Source: Bacillus sp. CGMCC 1.16541
GTDB lineage: Bacteria > Bacillota > Bacilli > Bacillales > Bacillaceae_H
Direction of reading: 5' to 3'
Length of the DNA stretch: 64,000 nt
Assembly (NCBI RefSeq): GCF_003184905.1
Contig: NZ_KZ821206.1
Coordinates: forward strand, 51,443 to 115,442
Part shown: piece after piece, positions 11,347 to 64,000 of the stretch
Layout: every line of letters starts with the position of its first letter
How positions within the stretch are numbered: position 1 is the first letter of the stretch
The notes under the pieces: model-generated
The model's database searches: none
Seen by the model: the letters and a program-made list of their open reading frames with translations, nothing else
What the model was told of the DNA's origin: nothing
Made by a program: the position numbers and the translations under genes

Positions 11347-12453
11347 TTAAAAAGCTGTCGTCTTTATTTGTTTTCCAGGGTACTCTTTAGCTTGCTCTTC
11401 TCCCGATAAGACACGCAAAGCTCCTTCAGCTAACGCTTGTAGTTCATCTTCTCCGGGTGAGACGATTACATCAGCAATCCAATTAACTCGCTTCACAATG
11501 TTTTCTACAAATGTTTTAGAGTAAGCTAATCCTCCTGTTAAAATAATGGCATCTACTTTACCTGCTAATACGGCACTAGCTGCACCAATTTCTTTCGCTA
11601 CTTGATAAGCCATAGCCTCATAAACGAGCTTCGCTTTTTCATCCCCTTTATTAGCGAGTGTTTCTACTTTTTGAGCATCAGAAGTATTAAGGTATCCGAC
11701 AAGCCCACCTTTTCCAACAACCATTTTCATGATTTCTTCACGGTAATAACGCCCAGAAAAGCAAAGTTTGATGAGATCTCCGACCGGAACCGTTCCTGCT
11801 CTTTCAGGACTGAAAGGCCCGTCACCGTGTAAACCGTTGTTTACATCAATAACTTTTCCCTTGTCATGAACACCGACTGTAATGCCTCCACCCATATGCG
11901 TTACAATTAATGAAAGCTCTTCATATTTACCATCTAGCTGCTTTGCTACTTTACGCGCAACTGCTTTTTGATTCAACGCGTGAAAAATACTTTTTCTCTC
12001 AATTAAAGCGAAACCGGAAATACGAGCAATATCATCTAATTCATCTACTACGACAGGGTCTACAATGTAAGAAGGAATGTTAAGTCCTGAAGCAATTTCG
12101 TATGCAAGAATGCCACCTAAATTTGAAGCATGATGACCTGCATACCCATCTTTCAAATCTTGAAGCATTAAGTCATTAACAGCGTATGTACCTCCCTCAA
12201 TCGGACGTAGTAAACCTCCTCTTCCACATACTGCACTCACTTTTGATAAATTAATTCCTTCTTCATCAAGTGCTTGTAAAATGGATTGTTTTCGAAACTC
12301 GTATTGATCATAAATTGTTTTATATTGATTTAAAACATCCGCATCATAACGAATGGTACGATCAAAAATAGGTTTTTCATTATGAAACACACCAATTTTT
12401 GTAGAGGTAGATCCAGGGTTAATGACAACAATCCGGTAGTCTTGCATTTCCAA
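11347..12453 (-). CDS. buk: Butyrate kinase
   Basis: ASKHA-fold acyl kinase that makes ATP from butyryl- or branched-chain acyl-phosphate, paired with Ptb. The phosphate-binding motif [14 protein letters not shown] is at the N-terminus and [20 protein letters not shown] and the late ILTGGLAYS follow. The start is most likely TTG at 12453, because AGGAGG lies 8 nt upstream; an ATG six bases further in would leave 14 nt. A 134-bp gap to bcd contains two 8-base arms (GAAAAGGG/CCCTTTTC) that could pair over a long loop; I see no terminator there. Confidence 0.93.
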
Positions 12454-17290: not shown

Positions 17291-18016
17291 TTAAAAAGAC
17301 ACTTTAAATGTTTGTACCATTTTTTCTGGATAGTCAGTAATAACGGCCTCGCATCCATATTTATACATTTGTTTCGCTATATTCACATCATTGATTGTAT
17401 ACGGCCTTACTTTTAATGAGAAATCACGAGATACATCGACATTCACTTCATTAACGGTGCGATAGTTAGGGTGCAGCGCTTTGGCTCCTAGGTGCTGCGC
17501 ATATATCCATGGCTCAAATAACGGGTATGAATACAAGACAGCCGTTTCAAGGTTTGAGTCTAACGATATTACTCTTGCTAAACTATTATGATTAAATGAT
17601 GAGATAATGACTCGATTCTGCATATTATATTTGTAGATAAGATCAATAACCTTCATTTCCATATATGCATACTCAAAAATATTATTTTTCAACTCAATGT
17701 TTACTTCTGTTAATTGTTCACTGGCCCATTGTAGTACTTCTTCTAAAGTTGGAATCGGACACACTCCATATCGCTTTTTAAATTTATAGCTAGCATCTAA
17801 CTTCTTTATTTCTGCATACGTTAAGTCTTTTACATACCCTTTTCCATTTGTGGTTCGGTCTACTTTTTCATCATGAATGACAACAAGCTCATTATCTTTT
17901 GTCATATGTACATCTAACTCAATGCCATCTGCTCCTACTCGAATCGCTTCTTTAAAAGAAATCATCGTGTTTTCAGGGTGCGTGCCAGCCGCACCTCTAT
18001 GTCCAAATATACGCAA
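17291..18016 (-). CDS. yqiK: Glycerophosphodiester phosphodiesterase (YqiK-like)
   Basis: Hydrolyses glycerophosphodiesters to glycerol-3-phosphate and an alcohol. The GDPD signature is complete: IFGHRGAAGTHPENT at the N-terminus with the catalytic His, then GADGIELDVHMTKDNE and VVIHDEKVDRTTNG with the metal-binding Glu/Asp and second His. No signal peptide is seen, so it is probably cytosolic. The start is TTG at 18016, 9 nt after AAAGGAG; the frame opens at another TTG (18025) that abuts the ribosome binding site. About 241 residues. Confidence 0.92.
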   Translation of the reverse strand: MRIFGHRGAAGTHPENTMISFKEAIRVGADGIELDVHMTKDNELVVIHDEKVDRTTNGKGYVKDLTYAEIKKLDASYKFKKRYGVCPIPTLEEVLQWASEQLTEVNIELKNNIFEYAYMEMKVIDLIYKYNMQNRVIISSFNHNSLARVISLDSNLETAVLYSYPLFEPWIYAQHLGAKALHPNYRTVNEVNVDVSRDFSLKVRPYTINDVNIAKQMYKYGCEAVITDYPEKMVQTFKVSF

Positions 18017-18367: not shown

Positions 18368-19156
18368 TCAAGAGGCTTTATGCTCTAAACGTAATTTATC
18401 AGCAACCATGGCGATGAATTCAGAGTTTGTTGGTTTTGCTTTTGTCATGCTAACTGTGTATCCAAAAAGGGAAGAGATCGAATCAATGTTACCACGGCTC
18501 CACGCCACTTCAATAGCATGTCGAATTGCACGCTCTACACGACTTGCAGTTGTGTTATATTTTTTTGCAATGTCTGGATATAACACTTTTGTAATAGAGC
18601 CTAACAACTCAATATCTTTATATACCATCGAAATCGCTTCACGTAAATACAAATAACCTTTAATGTGTGCCGGCACACCAATTTCGTGAATAATGCTGGT
18701 AATGTTGGCATCTAAGTTATTAGATTTCGTTTCACGCTGCGTTCTCATAGAAGATGAATGATGCTTAATAACAGAAGATGATTTTCCACTTACTTGACGA
18801 ATATGATCGACTAAGTTTTCCATATCAAATGGCTTTAAGATGAAGTACGCTGCTCCTAAATCTACAGCTTTCTTCGTTACATCTTCTTGTCCAAACGCCG
18901 TAAGCATAATGACATTTGGGTAGTTATCTTTCTTCATGTCTTTAAGCTGACTTAATACGGCTAGTCCATCAAGGTGAGGCATAATAATATCTAAAACAAG
19001 AACATCAGGATCTTTTTCTTTCAACATTGACAAACATTCTTGTCCATTATAAGCTACGCCAATTACTTCCATGTCATCTTGATCTGAAATATAATCCTCT
19101 AGTAAGCCTATTAACTCTCTGTTGTCGTCAACTAAACAAACTTTGATCTTCTTCAC
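18368..19156 (-). CDS. spo0A: Sporulation master regulator Spo0A
   Basis: Response regulator at the end of the sporulation phosphorelay. The receiver domain (1-120) has acidic residues D10 and D11, phosphoacceptor D56 in VLVLDIIMP, Thr in MLTAFG and Lys in ILKPF. After a Ser/Asn-rich linker comes the Spo0A DNA-binding domain with [20 protein letters not shown]. The 262 residues are full length. The start is GTG, with AGGAGG 8 nt upstream. It sits next to spoIVB, as in all Bacillus. Confidence 0.98.
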
Positions 19157-57159: not shown

Positions 57160-57567
57160 TTATCTATATTCGATCCATTGAATAACCTTCCCATCCTCAT
57201 ATTGAAAGTAAGCTTGTCCTTTATAATAACGATTTGATGACGTTTGGCACTCAATGACAACGGAGCCAATCTCATCACTCATTTTTGCAAAGGTATAAAT
57301 GATTTGACCGTTTGGATAAGTAGATTGAATGTTCGTTAAAAGATGGGGTTCCTCTGCCGTTCTTATCAAAGACATCGCTTCTACTACTCCACTTTCTAAC
57401 AAGTGGTTTACCTCATAAAACGATTCCACTTCTTTGTAGAGCTTCGCTTCTGACACATATAAAGAAAGCTGGTGTACAGTGAGGAAGATTAATAGTAAGC
57501 TAATGACTAACACAAGTGGCAAAGCTGTGCCTCTTTGGTTATTAATCATAACATACAACTTACTCAT
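57160..57567 (-). CDS. comGG: Competence pseudopilin-related protein ComGG
   Basis: Minor component of the competence pilus. A hydrophobic segment near the N-terminus (LPLVLVISLLLIFLTVHQL) follows NNQRGTA; no classical class III cleavage motif with Phe is seen, as in other ComGG. About 135 residues. It overlaps comGF by 8 bp. Its assignment rests on operon position. Confidence 0.85.
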   Translation of the reverse strand: MSKLYVMINNQRGTALPLVLVISLLLIFLTVHQLSLYVSEAKLYKEVESFYEVNHLLESGVVEAMSLIRTAEEPHLLTNIQSTYPNGQIIYTFAKMSDEIGSVVIECQTSSNRYYKGQAYFQYEDGKVIQWIEYR

Positions 57568-57982
57568 CAAACTTACTTATTTTACTTCTATATTTATTTT
57601 GTTTTTGATCGATGACTTCAACATGTAACAGATTATCTGTTTGTTTGTACTTTATTTGATCAATCTTTTGCAACAATACTTCGTGCCCTAACTTATTTAC
57701 ACGCCTTCTTACTTTATCTTGATACCTCTCATAAGTCACTTGTTTATGATCAAATGTTATAAACGTCAGTGTCGAAGGGTCCACACGTACATCTTGTGCT
57801 TCTCGGTACTCAAACGTTAGTTGAGAAACAAAGATTTCCCATTCGATGTTCGTTAAAGCTAGCGTTTCATTGTGCGTTTCTTTTATAATCGTCATAATGA
57901 TAGGAATGAACGAAACGATGAGTAGGAGATAAGCAAAACTGATTAACATTTCCACTAAAGTAAAGCCATTTTTCTTAATCAT
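57560..57982 (-). CDS. comGF: Competence pseudopilin ComGF
   Basis: Minor pseudopilin, 140 residues. Class III signal KKNG-FTLVEMLISFAYL with cleavage after Gly, followed by the hydrophobic helix. The C-terminus matches the ComGF family (DKVRRRVNKLGHEVLLQKI). ATG overlaps comGE by 4 bp. Confidence 0.9.
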   Translation of the reverse strand: MIKKNGFTLVEMLISFAYLLLIVSFIPIIMTIIKETHNETLALTNIEWEIFVSQLTFEYREAQDVRVDPSTLTFITFDHKQVTYERYQDKVRRRVNKLGHEVLLQKIDQIKYKQTDNLLHVEVIDQKQNKYRSKISKFDE

Positions 57983-58314
57983 TTTCGAATAAAATCACAC
58001 CTCGTTTTCTCACGATCTGATAAGTCTACCCACTGAACGCAAACCTTCTTTAATCCCTGTACATGATTTTCCCAATGGAAACGATAGCTTATCTTATTTA
58101 CAACATACTCTTCTCCTTCTTCATACGATTTACTATACTTATACTTCATCAACTCTTCATGTAAAAGAGTGTTTGCTTGATTAAGAATTTTTTGGTTCTT
58201 CCTTTCTTGTACAATTGATACATACAAAGGAAGCGTACTATAAACAACAAACAATAGAATACCAAAAGCAACAACCACTTCTAGCATGGTATAGCCTTTA
58301 CAATTTCTCCACAT
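57979..58314 (-). CDS. comGE: Competence pseudopilin ComGE
   Basis: Minor pseudopilin, 111 residues. Leader RNCKG-YTMLEVVVAFGILL fits the prepilin peptidase site. ATG lies within comGD (17-bp overlap), with GAAGAGG upstream. Confidence 0.88.
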   Translation of the reverse strand: MWRNCKGYTMLEVVVAFGILLFVVYSTLPLYVSIVQERKNQKILNQANTLLHEELMKYKYSKSYEEGEEYVVNKISYRFHWENHVQGLKKVCVQWVDLSDREKTRCDFIRK

Positions 58315-58753
58315 AAAATCGTCCTCTTCCTATTTGGAACACTAACCGATAAGATGTATCACCTGAACGAACAAAAAATGTCTTTCCCTGCGAAATATTT
58401 CCCCGGGAGTTATATCGTACACGATTGGGTCCACTCACACTCGAAATGATAATACTTGAATCATATGACTTTTCAAAAAGAATTTCGTTGCGTTGAACGG
58501 CATAATAAGTAGACGTAGTAGAATCAAATGTAAAAGTCGCTCGATCTGTTTGAGTCATTGCAACTTGTTGCATGTAAAACAAATCTGTTTGTAGTTGCTT
58601 TAAAAAAAATTGAATACGATACTGTTCAATTAATGGTTGAACAACTAATAAACTAATACTCGTCATAACTTGAATAACTCCTAATACAATGAGCATTTCT
58701 ACTAACGTAAAGCCACGTTGGTTCCTTTTATACGACTTCAAACTACTTTGCAA
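58298..58753 (-). CDS. comGD: Competence pseudopilin ComGD
   Basis: Pseudopilin, 151 residues, with class III leader KRNQRG-FTLVEMLIVLGV. The best start is TTG at 58753, 6 nt past GGGGAGG; the open frame extends to 58813 but would overlap comGC by 71 bp. With this start the overlap is 11 bp. Confidence 0.88.
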   Translation of the reverse strand: MQSSLKSYKRNQRGFTLVEMLIVLGVIQVMTSISLLVVQPLIEQYRIQFFLKQLQTDLFYMQQVAMTQTDRATFTFDSTTSTYYAVQRNEILFEKSYDSSIIISSVSGPNRVRYNSRGNISQGKTFFVRSGDTSYRLVFQIGRGRFYVEKL

Positions 58754-59042
58754 CCGTAACCTCCCCATCTGTGCTAATGACAATCTTTTTACCTCCAGCA
58801 CAAGATGGCTCATCTTTTAAATATTTATCTGAGGTTAATTGTTCAATTGTTGGTGTCACATCATTGTTTTCAATCTTGTACACTTGTACTTGTGCTTGAA
58901 CAGTCTGTATAAGAGCATCACACCCTTTAGAATTAATAGCGTTGTTATGCTTCAGTACATTTGGAATTGTAATGAGTAGTAAAACCGTAATGACGAGCAT
59001 CACGACTAACATTTCTATTAAAGTAAAACCATTTTTCTTCAC
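58743..59042 (-). CDS. comGC: Major competence pseudopilin ComGC
   Basis: Main subunit of the competence pilus that binds and pulls in DNA. Leader MKKNG-FTLIEMLVVMLVI is processed by ComC between Gly and Phe. Two Cys residues (SKGCDAL and DEPSCAGG) can form the intramolecular disulfide known for ComGC. 99 residues. The start is GTG, 8 nt after AAGGAG. Confidence 0.95.
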   Translation of the reverse strand: MKKNGFTLIEMLVVMLVITVLLLITIPNVLKHNNAINSKGCDALIQTVQAQVQVYKIENNDVTPTIEQLTSDKYLKDEPSCAGGKKIVISTDGEVTVAK

Positions 59043-59072
59043 ATAAACATCTCCTTTTCATATGGCATCTGC

Positions 59073-60116
59073 TTATAAACTAGACATCACATTAAACATA
59101 GGGACCATCACCCCTAAGTACATAAGTAAAATAACAAGCCCAATCAATGAAAACATAACAGGTTGAACAATCTGTAAACTTTTATGAATGATTTGTTCAA
59201 TTTTTTCAATCATGAAAGCAGCGTAATCGTATAGCTCTTGTGGAAGGTTACCATTTAATTCTCCATGCTTAATGACACTTGCAAATTCACGATCAAAATA
59301 GGGTCTTTCTTTTATCATGTCTCCTAGTTGAAACCCTGCTGATAGCTGTTTCATTAAATACGAGGCTTCTTCACAAAAAAACGGGTAATGTTGTTGTTTT
59401 TCAAATAGTTTCAAACAACTATAGATAGAAAGCCCTCCTTTTAAGAGGTTACTGAGATGAATCGCAAAAAAATAAGCATTGAACAACGGCACAATACGCC
59501 TTACGATTGGAATTCTCAATAAAAGCTTTACTTGTTTTGTGGGTGAAAGTTTCTTACGAAGTTGCCAATAACTGAAGTAAATGAGTAGAAGAAGTACACA
59601 AGCAAAAGGAGGAACATAAGGGAATAAGGAGATTACACTCATGAAGAGCATGAAACCTGTGGACTGACTGTGGCCAATTGATTCGTACAAACTTTGAAAC
59701 TGTGGCAGCAAAACGGTACTTAACAAAAATAAAATCACCATCATAAAGAACAATAACATGGCTGGGTACTGAGCAAGCTTTTGAAACTTTTTCATATGCA
59801 CAACTTTTTGATGAAGCATGTTTCCACTTTCTCTCAAAGCAAAATACACATCCCCATGTTGTTCAGCAAAATAGAGATAACTTAAAACATCTTTGTGAAA
59901 GCCCAATGCACGAAAAGCAGTATGAAGAGAATCGCCAGACTTTAATTGGAGAGATACATAATCAATTTGTTCACGAAGGTATGGAGGAAGTTGAAACTGT
60001 AAAAATTCTAATGCTTGAGAGAGTGTATAACCTTTTTCTAGTAGCTTTGAAAGTTGAATTAAAAATTTCGATTGCTGCTTTAGTGTCCATTTTTTCTTTG
60101 GTCTCTTACTCGTCAT
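59073..60116 (-). CDS. comGB: Competence pilus platform protein ComGB
   Basis: Inner-membrane platform of the pseudopilus, GspF family. Two T2SSF repeats are seen, with spans around residues 115-140, 160-190 and 320-345 (PVMFSLIGLVILLMYLGVM). 347 residues, complete. The ATG overlaps the comGA stop by 11 bp. Although intact, it is now downstream of an interrupted comGA. Confidence 0.93.
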   Translation of the reverse strand: MTSKRPKKKWTLKQQSKFLIQLSKLLEKGYTLSQALEFLQFQLPPYLREQIDYVSLQLKSGDSLHTAFRALGFHKDVLSYLYFAEQHGDVYFALRESGNMLHQKVVHMKKFQKLAQYPAMLLFFMMVILFLLSTVLLPQFQSLYESIGHSQSTGFMLFMSVISLFPYVPPFACVLLLLIYFSYWQLRKKLSPTKQVKLLLRIPIVRRIVPLFNAYFFAIHLSNLLKGGLSIYSCLKLFEKQQHYPFFCEEASYLMKQLSAGFQLGDMIKERPYFDREFASVIKHGELNGNLPQELYDYAAFMIEKIEQIIHKSLQIVQPVMFSLIGLVILLMYLGVMVPMFNVMSSL

Positions 60117-60735
60117 ACGCCCAATTTTCGAGGGAAGACGAATATAAATACCCTAATGCTACGCCCTTTTTGATAACATCCCGAAGCAATTTATAATCAT
60201 AAAATCCTTCTTCACCCTTCGCTTCTTTTATTACTCCATTTAATGCTCTACCATATAACAATTCATATACACTTGCCTGTCGATATTCACGCATTTTTCG
60301 GCATAACGGATGACACTTCTCTTCGCAATAAGGGCACTTGATTTCCACTAACCGTTGAGCCGCAACAGCAATTAATGTTTGTTCAATTTCCTGTAAACTA
60401 ATCCCAAACTCTAACAGGCGATAAATCGCTCCTTTCGTATCTTTTGTATGCATGGTCGTCAAAACTAAATGTCCTGTTAAAGCAGCACGAATGGCAATTT
60501 TCGCCGTTTCATCATCACGTATTTCACCAACCATAATAATATCAGGGTCATGTCGTAAAATTGCCTTTAAGCCTGTGGAGTAGGTAATACCTGCTCGTTC
60601 GTTTACTTGTACTTGCATGACATTTTCTGTTTTTCTTTCAATGGGATCTTCAAGCGTGATAATATTACGATTTAATAATTTCTTTGTTTCGTTTAACAAT
60701 GTATAGAGTGTGGTCGTTTTTCCTGACCCTGTTTG
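60106..60735 (-). pseudogene. comGA: comGA, 3' part only, split by a mobile element
   Basis: Traffic ATPase that powers the competence pilus. Only the part from the Walker A loop onward is here: QTGSGKTTTLY, Asp box ITLEDPIE, Walker B IIMVGEIRDDETA, His box GHLVLTTMHTKD and the Cys motif CPYCEEKCHPLC. The Pro expected before Thr in GPTGSGKT is Gln, and upstream residues are unrelated, so the junction is at about 60733-60735. The N-terminal half should lie beyond the element. An ATG at 60765 opens the frame but has no ribosome binding site and follows a terminator. Confidence 0.9.
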
Positions 60736-60765
60736 TCTAGTATTTAGGGATAATTTTTTCGACAT

Positions 60766-60798
60766 AAAAAAAGACTTTAAGCAGAAGTGCCTAAAGTC
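60766..60798 (-). terminator. Terminator at the element end
   Basis: GACTTTAAGCA (60773-60783) and TGCCTAAAGTC (60788-60798) pair fully on the minus strand with one G-U, loop of 4 nt, followed by seven U. It includes the stop of the 40-aa gene and insulates the comGA remnant from element transcripts. Confidence 0.85.
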
Positions 60799-60899
60799 CT
60801 TAATATCTTCGCTGTATTTAGAATTGCTTCCTGAGATGGTTGATTGACTACTATTACATTTATTTTAACTGTTTTGTTCTTTTTAGTTTTGTTTTTCAT
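60777..60899 (-). CDS. 40-aa basic small protein at the element boundary
   Basis: Not recognised with certainty. The protein has a Lys/Asn/Thr-rich first third, then VKINVIVVNQPSQEAILNTA and a short helix. AGGGGGT lies 8 nt before the ATG, so it is a real gene by that test. Small proteins with a V-N-x-P-S-x-E-A core occur near integrase genes of some Firmicute phages, from memory. A role in recombination control is possible but unproven. It ends inside a terminator about 40 bp from the att junction. Confidence 0.6.
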   Translation of the reverse strand: MKNKTKKNKTVKINVIVVNQPSQEAILNTAKILRTLGTSA

Positions 60900-61185
60900 T
60901 TTTAGTACCCCCTGAAATTTTTCTTTCAAAGAGGTACATGCAATTTATATATATTTTAAGGACAACGAAAAATTATTTTATTCGTCCGACCTTTGGTTAT
61001 GTACCTCTCAATTAGGTACTGATTATTTGGCAACGATTCAGGACAATATTTTTTTAAAAATTTTTTTTAAATAACTACCTGTACCGCCCTATAGTTTCTT
61101 GACCCAGTATATATAAGGAAATGGTGTGGCTTATGCCATGCCTATTTTATTTACTTTTGATTCCTAAAAAGAGAAGGTGAACAGA
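60900..61185. promoter_or_regulatory. Intergenic control region with AGGTAC operators
   Basis: Between divergent genes. AGAGGTACAT (60930-60939) is the exact reverse complement of ATGTACCTCT (60999-61008), and GTACCT-N7-AGGTAC (61001-61019) is a compact dyad. A further GTACC lies in the ribosome binding region of the 40-aa gene. These look like binding sites of an element repressor. No convincing -35/-10 pair was fixed. Confidence 0.5.
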
Positions 61186-61458
61186 TTGAACAATAACCGT
61201 CTTCCATATAATCAGGAAGTTGATTACCGATTTATTAAGCATGTGCGTTTGATCCGTAATAAAACCCAAAAAGAGTTTGAACATTTCATGGAAGTTGACG
61301 CTAGTACAATCGGAAAGCTTGAACGTGGAGAACTAGCCTTCACACCTACCTATCAGGAAAGGTTCAAGAAGGCAATGAAGCGTCTAAGGGTTTCAAATGT
61401 TGAAATAGCTAACATTCGCAACATTTTAGAAATGAAAACAAGAAAGGGGTATAAGTGA
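61186..61458 (+). CDS. Small helix-turn-helix protein
   Basis: 90-residue protein resembling Cro/CI-type HTH regulators: FIKHVRLIRNKTQKEFEHFM and EVDASTIGKLERGELAFTP contain the two helices and the SxIxxLERGE-like turn. Likely controls element genes and may bind the upstream AGGTAC sites. I choose TTG at 61186, 5 nt after AAGGTGA; a GTG at 61177 lies inside that site. The next ORF starts 1 bp after its stop. Confidence 0.7.
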   Translation: MNNNRLPYNQEVDYRFIKHVRLIRNKTQKEFEHFMEVDASTIGKLERGELAFTPTYQERFKKAMKRLRVSNVEIANIRNILEMKTRKGYK

Positions 61459-61597: not shown

Positions 61598-61652
61598 CGC
61601 TGTTTCTTGTGAAAGACAGCGACAAAAACAAATTAAAAAGGTGGTTATATCT

Positions 61653-62009
61653 ATGGAATTTAATAAGGAATTAGTAAGGGCTTTAGCTAACGGTGATAAA
61701 GGGGCATTTCAACAGATACAGAACCTTCCTACACCAGTAAGAATGGCACTAGGTATTGAAGTCGATAAGCTTCGTAGAGATGAAAACATTATACCTATGT
61801 CGAATGACTTTTCTGTATTTGAACAAAAGAAAAGTTCTTATGTAGATGATGATGCTGTTAGAGAGGCCATGCGAAAGAGAATGGAAATTGATCGTCAAAA
61901 TCGAGAACGCCAAGAAAAAGCACGAGAAGAATTTATTAAAGAACAAACTAGACTTGCTGTGGAACGTGCAAGGGCTGGTCTGCCACGTAATGACAGATTA
62001 CCACGTTAA
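61653..62009 (+). CDS. 118-aa protein, paralogue of the next ORF
   Basis: Not recognised. The N-terminal 42 residues (MEFNKELVRALANGDKGAFQ and following) resemble the whole of the 43-aa protein encoded next. The C-terminal half is a highly charged Arg/Glu-rich helix, probably a coiled coil, ending GLPRNDRLPR. ATG at 61653 has AAAGGTGG 8 nt upstream. Confidence 0.7.
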   Translation: MEFNKELVRALANGDKGAFQQIQNLPTPVRMALGIEVDKLRRDENIIPMSNDFSVFEQKKSSYVDDDAVREAMRKRMEIDRQNRERQEKAREEFIKEQTRLAVERARAGLPRNDRLPR

Positions 62010-62236: not shown

Positions 62237-62587
62237 ATGAGATCAGGTATTAAACAACTAGTCATTTCATCATGTGCAAACTTCGTAGACGGTAACTGCA
62301 TATTGCTAGATAAACCCTGTCCGTTAATTAGTGGCGGTGAGTATAGAGGTAAAAAGATACCAGCTAGTGATTGTTCCTGTACTTACTTTGAAAATTCTGT
62401 ACTACCAACAAATAAAGCATTAGAGGCTGTTTATTATGGCAAGGAAACATTATTAAACAAGGTATGTAAAGGCTGTGGAAAAGGTTTTAACTCAGTGTCT
62501 AACAGGGCTGTTTATTGTTCTGATACTTGCAGACATTCAGCTAGGAAAAAGACATTTATAAAGGCTAATCAAAAACGGGCTAAATAA
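62237..62587 (+). CDS. Cysteine-rich VLP-type protein
   Basis: 116 residues with two Cys clusters. The first (CANFVDGNCILLDKPCP...CSCTYFENSVLP) matches the Cys_rich_VLP domain, named for its Val-Leu-Pro, found on plasmids and integrative elements of Firmicutes. The second (CKGCGKGFNSVSNRAVYC...C) is a zinc ribbon of the CxxC-x(14-18)-CxxxC type. Probably a nucleic-acid-binding element protein. AAAGGAGA precedes ATG. Confidence 0.75.
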   Translation: MRSGIKQLVISSCANFVDGNCILLDKPCPLISGGEYRGKKIPASDCSCTYFENSVLPTNKALEAVYYGKETLLNKVCKGCGKGFNSVSNRAVYCSDTCRHSARKKTFIKANQKRAK

Positions 62588-62715: not shown

Positions 62716-63108
62716 ATGAATAAAGGCATGAATAGAAAACAGTTTGAGGCTAAATTAAATGATAATTATAGCGGTGCTGTGACACCTTTAACAAATTATA
62801 TAAATGAACGTGCTGTAATGGTATTCCAATGTAAAGAGTGCCAATTAAAGTTCTTTGGTAAGCCTAGTCATATGGTAGGAAAGGAACACCAAAGACATTT
62901 ATGTCACCACCCATACGGTGATAGAAATGGAACGAGAGTACAGCATATTATTGGAAAACATAAGGTTAAAAAGAAACAGCAACCAGTAAACTTGGAACAG
63001 TTAAATGAAATGATATGGAATGACTATTCATATAAGCAAATAGCGGAAAAATTAACAGTTAACCCTAAGCTTATTAAAGATTACTTTAAATCTGAGGGGT
63101 TAATTTAA
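62716..63108 (+). CDS. Zinc-finger and HTH protein of the element
   Basis: 130 residues. The N-terminal half holds a Cys/His finger (FQCKECQLKFFGKPSHMVGKEH...LCHH) and the C-terminal part a helix-turn-helix (SYKQIAEKLTVNPKLIKDYF). Not assigned to a named family. GGCGGT lies 5 nt before ATG. A DNA-binding role is inferred from the motifs. Confidence 0.65.
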   Translation: MNKGMNRKQFEAKLNDNYSGAVTPLTNYINERAVMVFQCKECQLKFFGKPSHMVGKEHQRHLCHHPYGDRNGTRVQHIIGKHKVKKKQQPVNLEQLNEMIWNDYSYKQIAEKLTVNPKLIKDYFKSEGLI

Positions 63109-63183: not shown

Positions 63184-63612
63184 TTATAGACAAGCCTGAT
63201 TTTGTTCCCTAAACCATTTACTAAATTCACTTCTAGTCATTTGGGTATCTTCTGTCTCTACCCCGTCTGCATCCCAGTCAAGCACTTCCATAAGAAGAAT
63301 CTTATCCTCGTGCGTTGTACCTTTTTTTGCATAGTTAACTAAATAAAGTGTGGCATCAAGATCATCAGCAACTTGACATAGACTAATAAACTTTCTTTTA
63401 TTTTTGTGCCAATATCTTCTCGGATGACTAGTGTGAGGATTAACAGTTTGACCCTCTTCACATAACAGATACTCAAAGATAACATACTCATCATCCGAGT
63501 TCTTTTGAATCCTGTCAAAGTTGATAGCAGCTGTCACATCGCCAGCTAACATTTCTTTTGCGAATTCAAATCCACTTGAATCATCAATACCTAACTTTTT
63601 ACTTACTGGCAT
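63184..63612 (-). CDS. Unrecognised 142-aa protein downstream of the restriction-like gene
   Basis: Acidic soluble protein, no membrane segment. Predicted alternation of strands and helices: AAINFDRIQ, YVIFEYLLCEE, KKFISL-type helix (KNKRKFISLCQVADDLDA), then LYLVNYA and ILLMEVLDW. The order strand-Asp, strand-Glu, helix, strand loosely recalls PD-(D/E)xK nuclease folds, but no Lys follows the Glu, so this is weak. Start at 63612, 6 nt after GGGGG; an ATG two codons upstream abuts that site. It is encoded just after the helicase-nuclease, with a terminator between. Confidence 0.6.
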   Translation of the reverse strand: MPVSKKLGIDDSSGFEFAKEMLAGDVTAAINFDRIQKNSDDEYVIFEYLLCEEGQTVNPHTSHPRRYWHKNKRKFISLCQVADDLDATLYLVNYAKKGTTHEDKILLMEVLDWDADGVETEDTQMTRSEFSKWFREQNQACL

Positions 63613-63680
63613 ATTCATCCCCCTTTGTCTATATTTTCCACACTATTCCATAATAACACAACTAGAGTCATAGAAAACAA

Positions 63681-63710: not shown

Positions 63711-64000
63711 CTATTCAAGCAGACTTAATAAACTCTTTTTCCATTCTTCTTGTGACACTAGTTGGAAAACAAATTCCTTATCCTCAAATTCTAATCCTAA
63801 GGCATTCCAGGAAGTTTTTTTGCCCAATTCGTTACATAAGTTGAAAATATTTTCTTTATAGGTTGTATCATCGTTCCCCATTAAGTGCTTACCTTTAGTT
63901 TCCATGACATAAACAGTTGAAAAATCATTGTCTTCCTTAGGCTTAATGTCAGAGAAAATAAAGTCAGGATAAATCTTTTGTTTCCTCCAGCCCTGAATAG
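63711..64000 (-). CDS. Type III restriction-like helicase, C-terminal nuclease end (partial)
   Basis: The frame is open from the window edge, so the gene begins outside. The 96 residues seen carry a PD-(D/E)xK nuclease core: PD in IYPDFIFSD and ETK in YVMETKGKHL, then GNDDTTYKENIF, as in the C-terminus of Res subunits of type III restriction enzymes and related DEAD/DEAH helicases. An internal ATG at 63905 falls inside the catalytic motif and is not a start. I expect a large helicase with a methylase or partner further right. Probably a phage-defence cargo gene. Confidence 0.72.
   Translation of the reverse strand, partial: IQGWRKQKIYPDFIFSDIKPKEDNDFSTVYVMETKGKHLMGNDDTTYKENIFNLCNELGKKTSWNALGLEFEDKEFVFQLVSQEEWKKSLLSLLE

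Follow-up and report, generated by a model that had tools for sequence, protein, structure and literature searches.

The comGA gene of Bacillus sp. CGMCC 1.16541 is interrupted by a 13,022-bp non-phage element that very probably inserted through its own large serine recombinase at a fixed attB site within comGA, with the dinucleotide AC as the point of crossover. The stretch of DNA under study, hereafter the window, comprised 64,000 nucleotides. The element begins at window positions 60731-60732 and extends beyond the right edge. The remainder of the element was recovered from the same draft genome (G000; 3,966,524 bases in 58 contigs, 99.74% complete) as locus L008 (C2:109000-128500), in which the window position equals the L008 position + 57557, as verified across the overlap.

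The 3′ part of comGA occupied 60106..60729 on the minus strand, encoded ComGA from GSGKT onward and matched positions 130-266 of NCBIfam NF041000. Using a start supplied by the element, the open reading frame spanned 60106-60765 (−), and the DNA ahead of GSGKT was foreign, belonging to the element. A T2SSE-family search of the genome located the 5′ part (match at C2:125194-125628; the part itself at G000:C2:125194-125631), on the same contig and strand as the 3′ part and ending in ...FTGPT; the two parts were separated by 13,022 bp, core to core. The initial annotation had proposed that a mobile element splits comGA within its Walker A codons, with normal ComGA after the junction and foreign sequence before it, and had placed the 5′ half and an integrase to the right. 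Indeed, the 5′ part, both junctions and a recombinase were found, the 5′ part and the recombinase gene lying beyond the window on the same contig. That annotation had also named a second intact comGA, or the lack of any 5′ half, as results that would refute it; the 5′ half is present, and no second intact comGA was found by T2SSE-family search of the 99.74%-complete genome. Two further full genes of this family (C2:308805-310858) were rejected as comGA, being pilB- and pilT-like paralogues named by size and order. As a separate observation, these ATPase genes suggest that the genome may encode a type IV pilus in addition to comG.

On the comGA strand, the 5′ junction read GGTCCT-AC-TTGTTGAGTCCTTAGGGATA and the 3′ junction read TATCCCTAAATACTAGACAA-AC-AGGGTCAGG. 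The sole sequence common to both was the dinucleotide AC (60731..60732; GT in the window), which forms the first two positions of the codon for Thr in GPTGSGKT. A core had been anticipated near 60725-60740 and was found there; it is only 2 bp and not longer, which counts against insertion by the recombinase at a fixed attB. Joined at AC, the flanks read ...FTGPTGSGKTTTLY..., leaving the ComGA frame unbroken with zero codons gained or lost. The deduced attP, half of which is the element arm of attR (60733..60752, −), was near-palindromic about AC, with 16 of 20 arm positions matching without a randomised control. In the six loci for which both junctions were read, this symmetry was 11-17 of 20, again without a randomised control. 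The core was AC and the break fell in the identical codon in all six, which argues that the coincidence of the junctions is not due to chance. An empty site was present in G011, a genome of the same genus, in which the two comGA parts were contiguous and 87% and 91% identical to those of CGMCC 1.16541.

The target was further evaluated in intact comGA genes of the same family (n = 14; G012 was left out as its comGA is broken elsewhere). AC was present in all 14, and their consensus at the site was T..T..T.TT.AC.GG.CC.AC.GG.TC.GG.AA.AC.AC.A. Synonymous change cannot alter the core because AC fills codon positions 1 and 2 of this Thr. When attB was compared with its own reverse complement, 9-12 of 20 arm positions matched, which we infer reflects the codons GGN CCN ACN GGN. 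The pilB- and pilT-like genes of the genome contain the identical AC within their GPTGSGK codons, yet are unoccupied; thus, possession of the P-loop motif is not enough to make a target. Elsewhere in the genome, eight sites of the GPTGxGKT type were all uninterrupted. Other kinds of ends and targets were considered separately. Long terminal repeats were rejected, the repeat search having returned only short, imperfect families, none of which paired the element ends. A tRNA gene as the insertion target was likewise rejected, as L008 contains no tRNA. Across six loci, known RNAs gave two matches at gathering score, both in L009 and outside the element.

The recombinase gene adjoins the far (5′) junction and starts 46 bases inside the element. 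Its frame is open (503 codons), and the 495-aa protein contains a Resolvase N-terminal domain (PF00239, 2.3e-21) followed by a Recombinase domain (PF07508, 8.4e-20), both over cut-off. In PHROGs, it matched integrase phrog_95 (5e-89); its nearest solved relative was SprA/YokA of SPbeta (1.3e-41, profile positions 5-479). Eight residues, Y17, R19, S21, R22, C305, C308, C328 and C330, were invariant across six aligned relatives. We take the first four to be the N-terminal catalytic Ser motif and the cysteines to be the zinc-ribbon pairs. Based on the domain order, these motifs and a symmetric attP around a dinucleotide shared with attB, the protein is predicted to be a large serine recombinase. 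Among 50,697 phage records, 450 matched it, none reaching 60% identity.

The element has a G+C content of 33.8%. At its comGA-proximal end, a terminator-like hairpin of 14 pairs followed by a T run (60770..60801, −) points towards comGA. A similar hairpin occurred at the same place in four of six other elements, G801 having a different one and G195 only a weak one. This end also contains a small ORF (60777..60899, −; 40 aa from ATG), present in five of seven elements and a candidate directionality factor. Synonymous change outweighed non-synonymous change in all 10 pairs, and translation of this ORF is therefore probable. Its comparison with solved structures returned three chance-level hits (E ≥ 0.85), none of them to SprB. 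Next are an HTH protein (HTH_3, below the Pfam cut-off; 61177..61458, +) found in four of seven elements, a 122-aa ORF (61641..62009, +), a 116-aa ORF of the Cys_rich_VLP family (62237..62587, +) and a 130-aa ORF with relatives in three of seven elements (62716..63108, +). They are followed by a 144-aa ORF with a match to one portion of a model for type II restriction enzymes (63184..63618, −) and the 3′ end of a type III restriction subunit gene (63711..64000, −; whole gene L008:6154-8691, 845 aa). Past the window edge, the type III methylase (549 aa), a small resolvase (202 aa) and the large serine recombinase are encoded. PADLOC assigned the cargo to type III restriction-modification. Neither the Pfam matches of 14 ORFs of the element, five of which gave no match, nor the PHROG matches of 10 of its ORFs included capsid, tail, terminase, lysis or other phage structural genes, a relaxase or conjugation genes; coupling protein and T4SS families were likewise missing from the Pfam matches.

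Two non-coding features of the locus are recorded here. Behind the recombinase gene, a conserved block (L008:14065-14302) carries TTAATCACA / TTGTGACTTT / TGTGATTA motifs, and similar blocks occupy corresponding places in L009, L010 and L016. The stretch L008:11817-12157 is pyrimidine-rich, contains extended frames composed of Leu, Ser and Cys codons and might serve as an origin or in regulation; stretches resembling it also occur in L009, L010 and L016.

Relatives of the recombinase were found in several searches. Genome contigs yielded two loci, in Terribacillus halophilus (L009) and Bacillus tianshenii (L010), with recombinases 75% identical. A sample of the order gave 5 of 397 genomes at E ≤ 1e-120: CGMCC 1.16541 itself, G254 (counted once together with the B. 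tianshenii locus), G361, G195 and G117. A sample of the class gave 3 of 398 at 1e-70, the two beyond our own being approximately 30% identical, and the ComGA parts gave no match in their loci. Both were samples of the available genomes, scored with at most three candidates per genome. Searches by genus gave 1 of 36, 3 of 36 and 1 of 16 genomes, and G801 was added. Among viral contigs, an IMG/VR contig (L016) encoded the closest relative, at 87% identity.

Seven of the eight distinct loci of the clade, our own included, directly follow the GPT codons of comGA, and these seven are spread over the genus of CGMCC 1.16541, g14, g31, g70 and Terribacillus. Thus, the search for related insertions, suggested by the initial annotation, revealed that the identical codon is hit in other genera, and the comGA codon is a shared att site of the recombinase clade. 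The clade illustrates how an att site can be kept between distant hosts, its core occupying codon positions that the ATPase constrains. Between CGMCC 1.16541 and Terribacillus, the recombinases are 75% identical versus 39% and 54% for the two ComGA parts, which suggests horizontal movement between hosts. As a general att site for the family, the comGA codon accounts for all but the L016 copy, which lies outside comGA: its left flank is a lipoprotein gene, and comGA was not found in the 56-kb record. Either site specificity is not absolute or the L016 copy, whose recombinase is the closest relative, was moved. In the sequence at its ends (L016:1-900 and 11480-12337), AC is kept at the left and the right end is altered, appearing to run into transposase-like sequence.

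The six elements for which both junctions were read spanned 7,423-18,109 bp. Across the seven elements compared, which exclude G117, the recombinase was present in all, the small terminal ORF in five and the HTH protein in four; small ORFs of unrelated strand inside the recombinase gene also clustered and were disregarded. The cargo varied. The B. tianshenii element encodes a type II methylase, a restriction enzyme and PDC-S64 (PADLOC) as well as Vsr (Pfam), and that of L016 a type II methylase and restriction enzyme (PADLOC). In G195, PADLOC identified an HNH protein resembling type IV enzymes, PDC-S54 and a weak AbiC match. A similar HNH protein and a weak match to PtuB were identified among 10 scanned ORFs of the G801 element, G361 gave only weak defence matches, and none of the six ORFs of the Terribacillus element had a PADLOC match. 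A JetABCD (Wadjet) set in G117 is part of the element locus only if the two contig ends concerned adjoin. Defence-type cargo is therefore frequent in the clade, not universal, and the data suggest islands that switch off host DNA uptake while often carrying defence genes.

Insertion by the adjoining recombinase has to be weighed against other accounts of the split gene. An assembly artefact might be suspected in a draft of 58 contigs; both comGA parts and the whole element nevertheless lie on one 372-kb contig, and independent genomes, including ones in which it lies on contigs of 2.6 and 4.4 Mb, contain the identical junction. We give this account practically no credence. It is very unlikely that the element is a prophage or phage satellite: no structural family occurred among the PHROG matches of 10 of its ORFs, no recombinase relative of at least 60% identity exists in the 50,697 phage records, and the elements span just 7.4-18.1 kb, even though the recombinase is of the phage-integrase type (phrog_95) and the L016 relative comes from a virus-collection contig. 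Of the initial comparison with phage insertions, the integrative element stood and the phage likeness did not, given the lack of recognised structural genes and the gin-like restriction-modification cargo. That the element is a degenerate, immobile remnant is quite unlikely. The recombinase of the G117 copy holds stops, whereas our own is open over 503 codons, the two attachment arms are in place and each comGA part retains an open frame.

The split might also act as a regulated competence switch, in which a host signal triggers excision, comGA is restored and the element may re-integrate, similar to SPbeta in spsM and gin in gerE. The exact restoration of the frame by the joined flanks is in keeping with this, as are the published precedents (PMC4191935, PMC5595907, as described there). 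So is the purifying constraint on the two comGA parts relative to G011 (dN/dS of 0.038 and 0.024; 0.037 for a neighbour gene), together with a comEC that is open and over cut-off. However, dS was saturated, so that constraint since the insertion cannot be dated, and the decay of the G117 recombinase implies that some copies are stuck. Overall, such regulation is rather unlikely; a comK-type switch might be proposed for this element by analogy.

In the preferred reading, insertion by the element's own large serine recombinase, the enzyme encoded beside the far junction would have catalysed insertion at the GPTGSGKT codons. With a directionality factor, perhaps the product of the small ORF at the opposite end, it would excise the element and restore comGA. 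The downstream genes comGB-comGG (57160..60116, −) have open frames and are separated from the operon start by the element. While the element is integrated, ComGA would be absent, and comGB-comGG, behind the element's terminator, would probably be unexpressed; thus, the cell should be non-transformable. Both excision and the loss of competence are predictions from sequence. A non-transformable host could not shed the element by recombination with incoming DNA that bears the empty site, to the element's advantage, and the host would acquire a restriction system. A broader proposal, which we regard as doubtful, is that competence-silencing islands spread horizontally, with the P-loop-codon quasi-palindrome (GGN CCN ACN GGN) around the fixed AC as a cross-genus attB, uptake traded for immunity and excision signalled by competence. 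Small islands at one comGA base pair in several genera, with changing, often defence-type cargo, would combine two barriers to foreign DNA, absent uptake and restriction, within a single mobile element. The clade would allow the chromosomal-curing hypothesis to be tested with a non-lytic element, and supplies recombinases paired with deduced attP and attB sequences.

G117 may represent an escape from the element. Its recombinase is decayed, with one TAG and one TAA, and of the two junctions its contig carries the 5′ one alone. On contig C14 (L067, G117:C14:1-20000) lie the decayed element and the upstream flank, which includes the 5′ part of comGA; contig C6 (L066, G117:C6:249000-266271) holds a complete comGA-GG, with other DNA ahead up to the contig end, and the JetABCD (Wadjet) genes are nearby. 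Over 540 bp, the two copies of the comGA 5′ part are 89.6% identical, in a stretch that starts 98 bp before the start codon and ends exactly at AC. The simplest reading, which assumes that C6 and C14 adjoin and belong to one strain, is that a second copy of the 5′ part made comGA whole again, with decay of the recombinase following.

Parts of this picture are already known. In Bacillus cereus ATCC10987, gerE is split by the gin element, described as a non-phage island that has a serine recombinase system and carries restriction-modification genes (PMC5595907). Our element is similar in that a non-phage island with a serine recombinase and restriction-modification splits a coding gene, the likeness being drawn from the described organisation. 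Like gin, it has flanks that rejoin in frame and an attP-type inverted repeat (PMC5595907), and no phage structural genes were recognised among its scanned ORFs. Gin targets gerE, with a 9-bp shared sequence, three recombinase genes and excision described in sporulation (PMC5595907), whereas our element targets comGA, has a 2-bp core and is known from sequence alone. SPbeta in spsM is comparable through SprA, the nearest solved recombinase. It has a small directionality factor, SprB, and spsM is rebuilt upon excision (PMC4191935); our element has a candidate small ORF, without a match to the solved SprB-containing chain. SPbeta further differs in being an active phage with a 16-bp core in a sporulation gene (PMC4191935).

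For comGA itself, prophage SpST71A of S. pseudintermedius (approximately 44.3 kb) is described as splitting the gene at 509 of 988 bp (PMC7029219). SpST71A is a phage, and its likeness to our element is drawn at the gene level. Insertions in comYC, comK, comFA and comM are also published; these concern phages or other elements and genes, and the argument in common is a shield against removal by transformation (PMC4774983). A catalogue of large serine recombinases reports DNA competence genes as strongly enriched among targets (PMC10083194); its main text contains no occurrence of comGA, and the clade may be in its supplement. Prophage disruption of comG in Macrococcus is mentioned in PMC6008420, and PMC3948429 lists comGA. 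Thus, a prophage in comGA, competence-gene insertions with the curing argument, target enrichment and gin are prior knowledge (PMC7029219, PMC4774983, PMC10083194 and PMC5595907, respectively). In the main texts of the open-licence literature, no description of a family of non-phage recombinase islands at the P-loop of comGA was found.

Finally, comGA was hit at several sites, with at least the following break points. The gene is broken at one and the same other place in L024 (G012, of the window's genus; near 19108) and L053 (G228; near 17703), following ...LTGHSVL and ...LTGHLVM, respectively; the adjoining serine recombinases are different and 24-26% identical to our own. In L052 (G018), near 1154, the break follows ...IYRLLE. 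In L051 (G390), near 17590, it falls in DPDMIM|VGEIRD and is adjoined by an ORF that we read as tyrosine-integrase-like.
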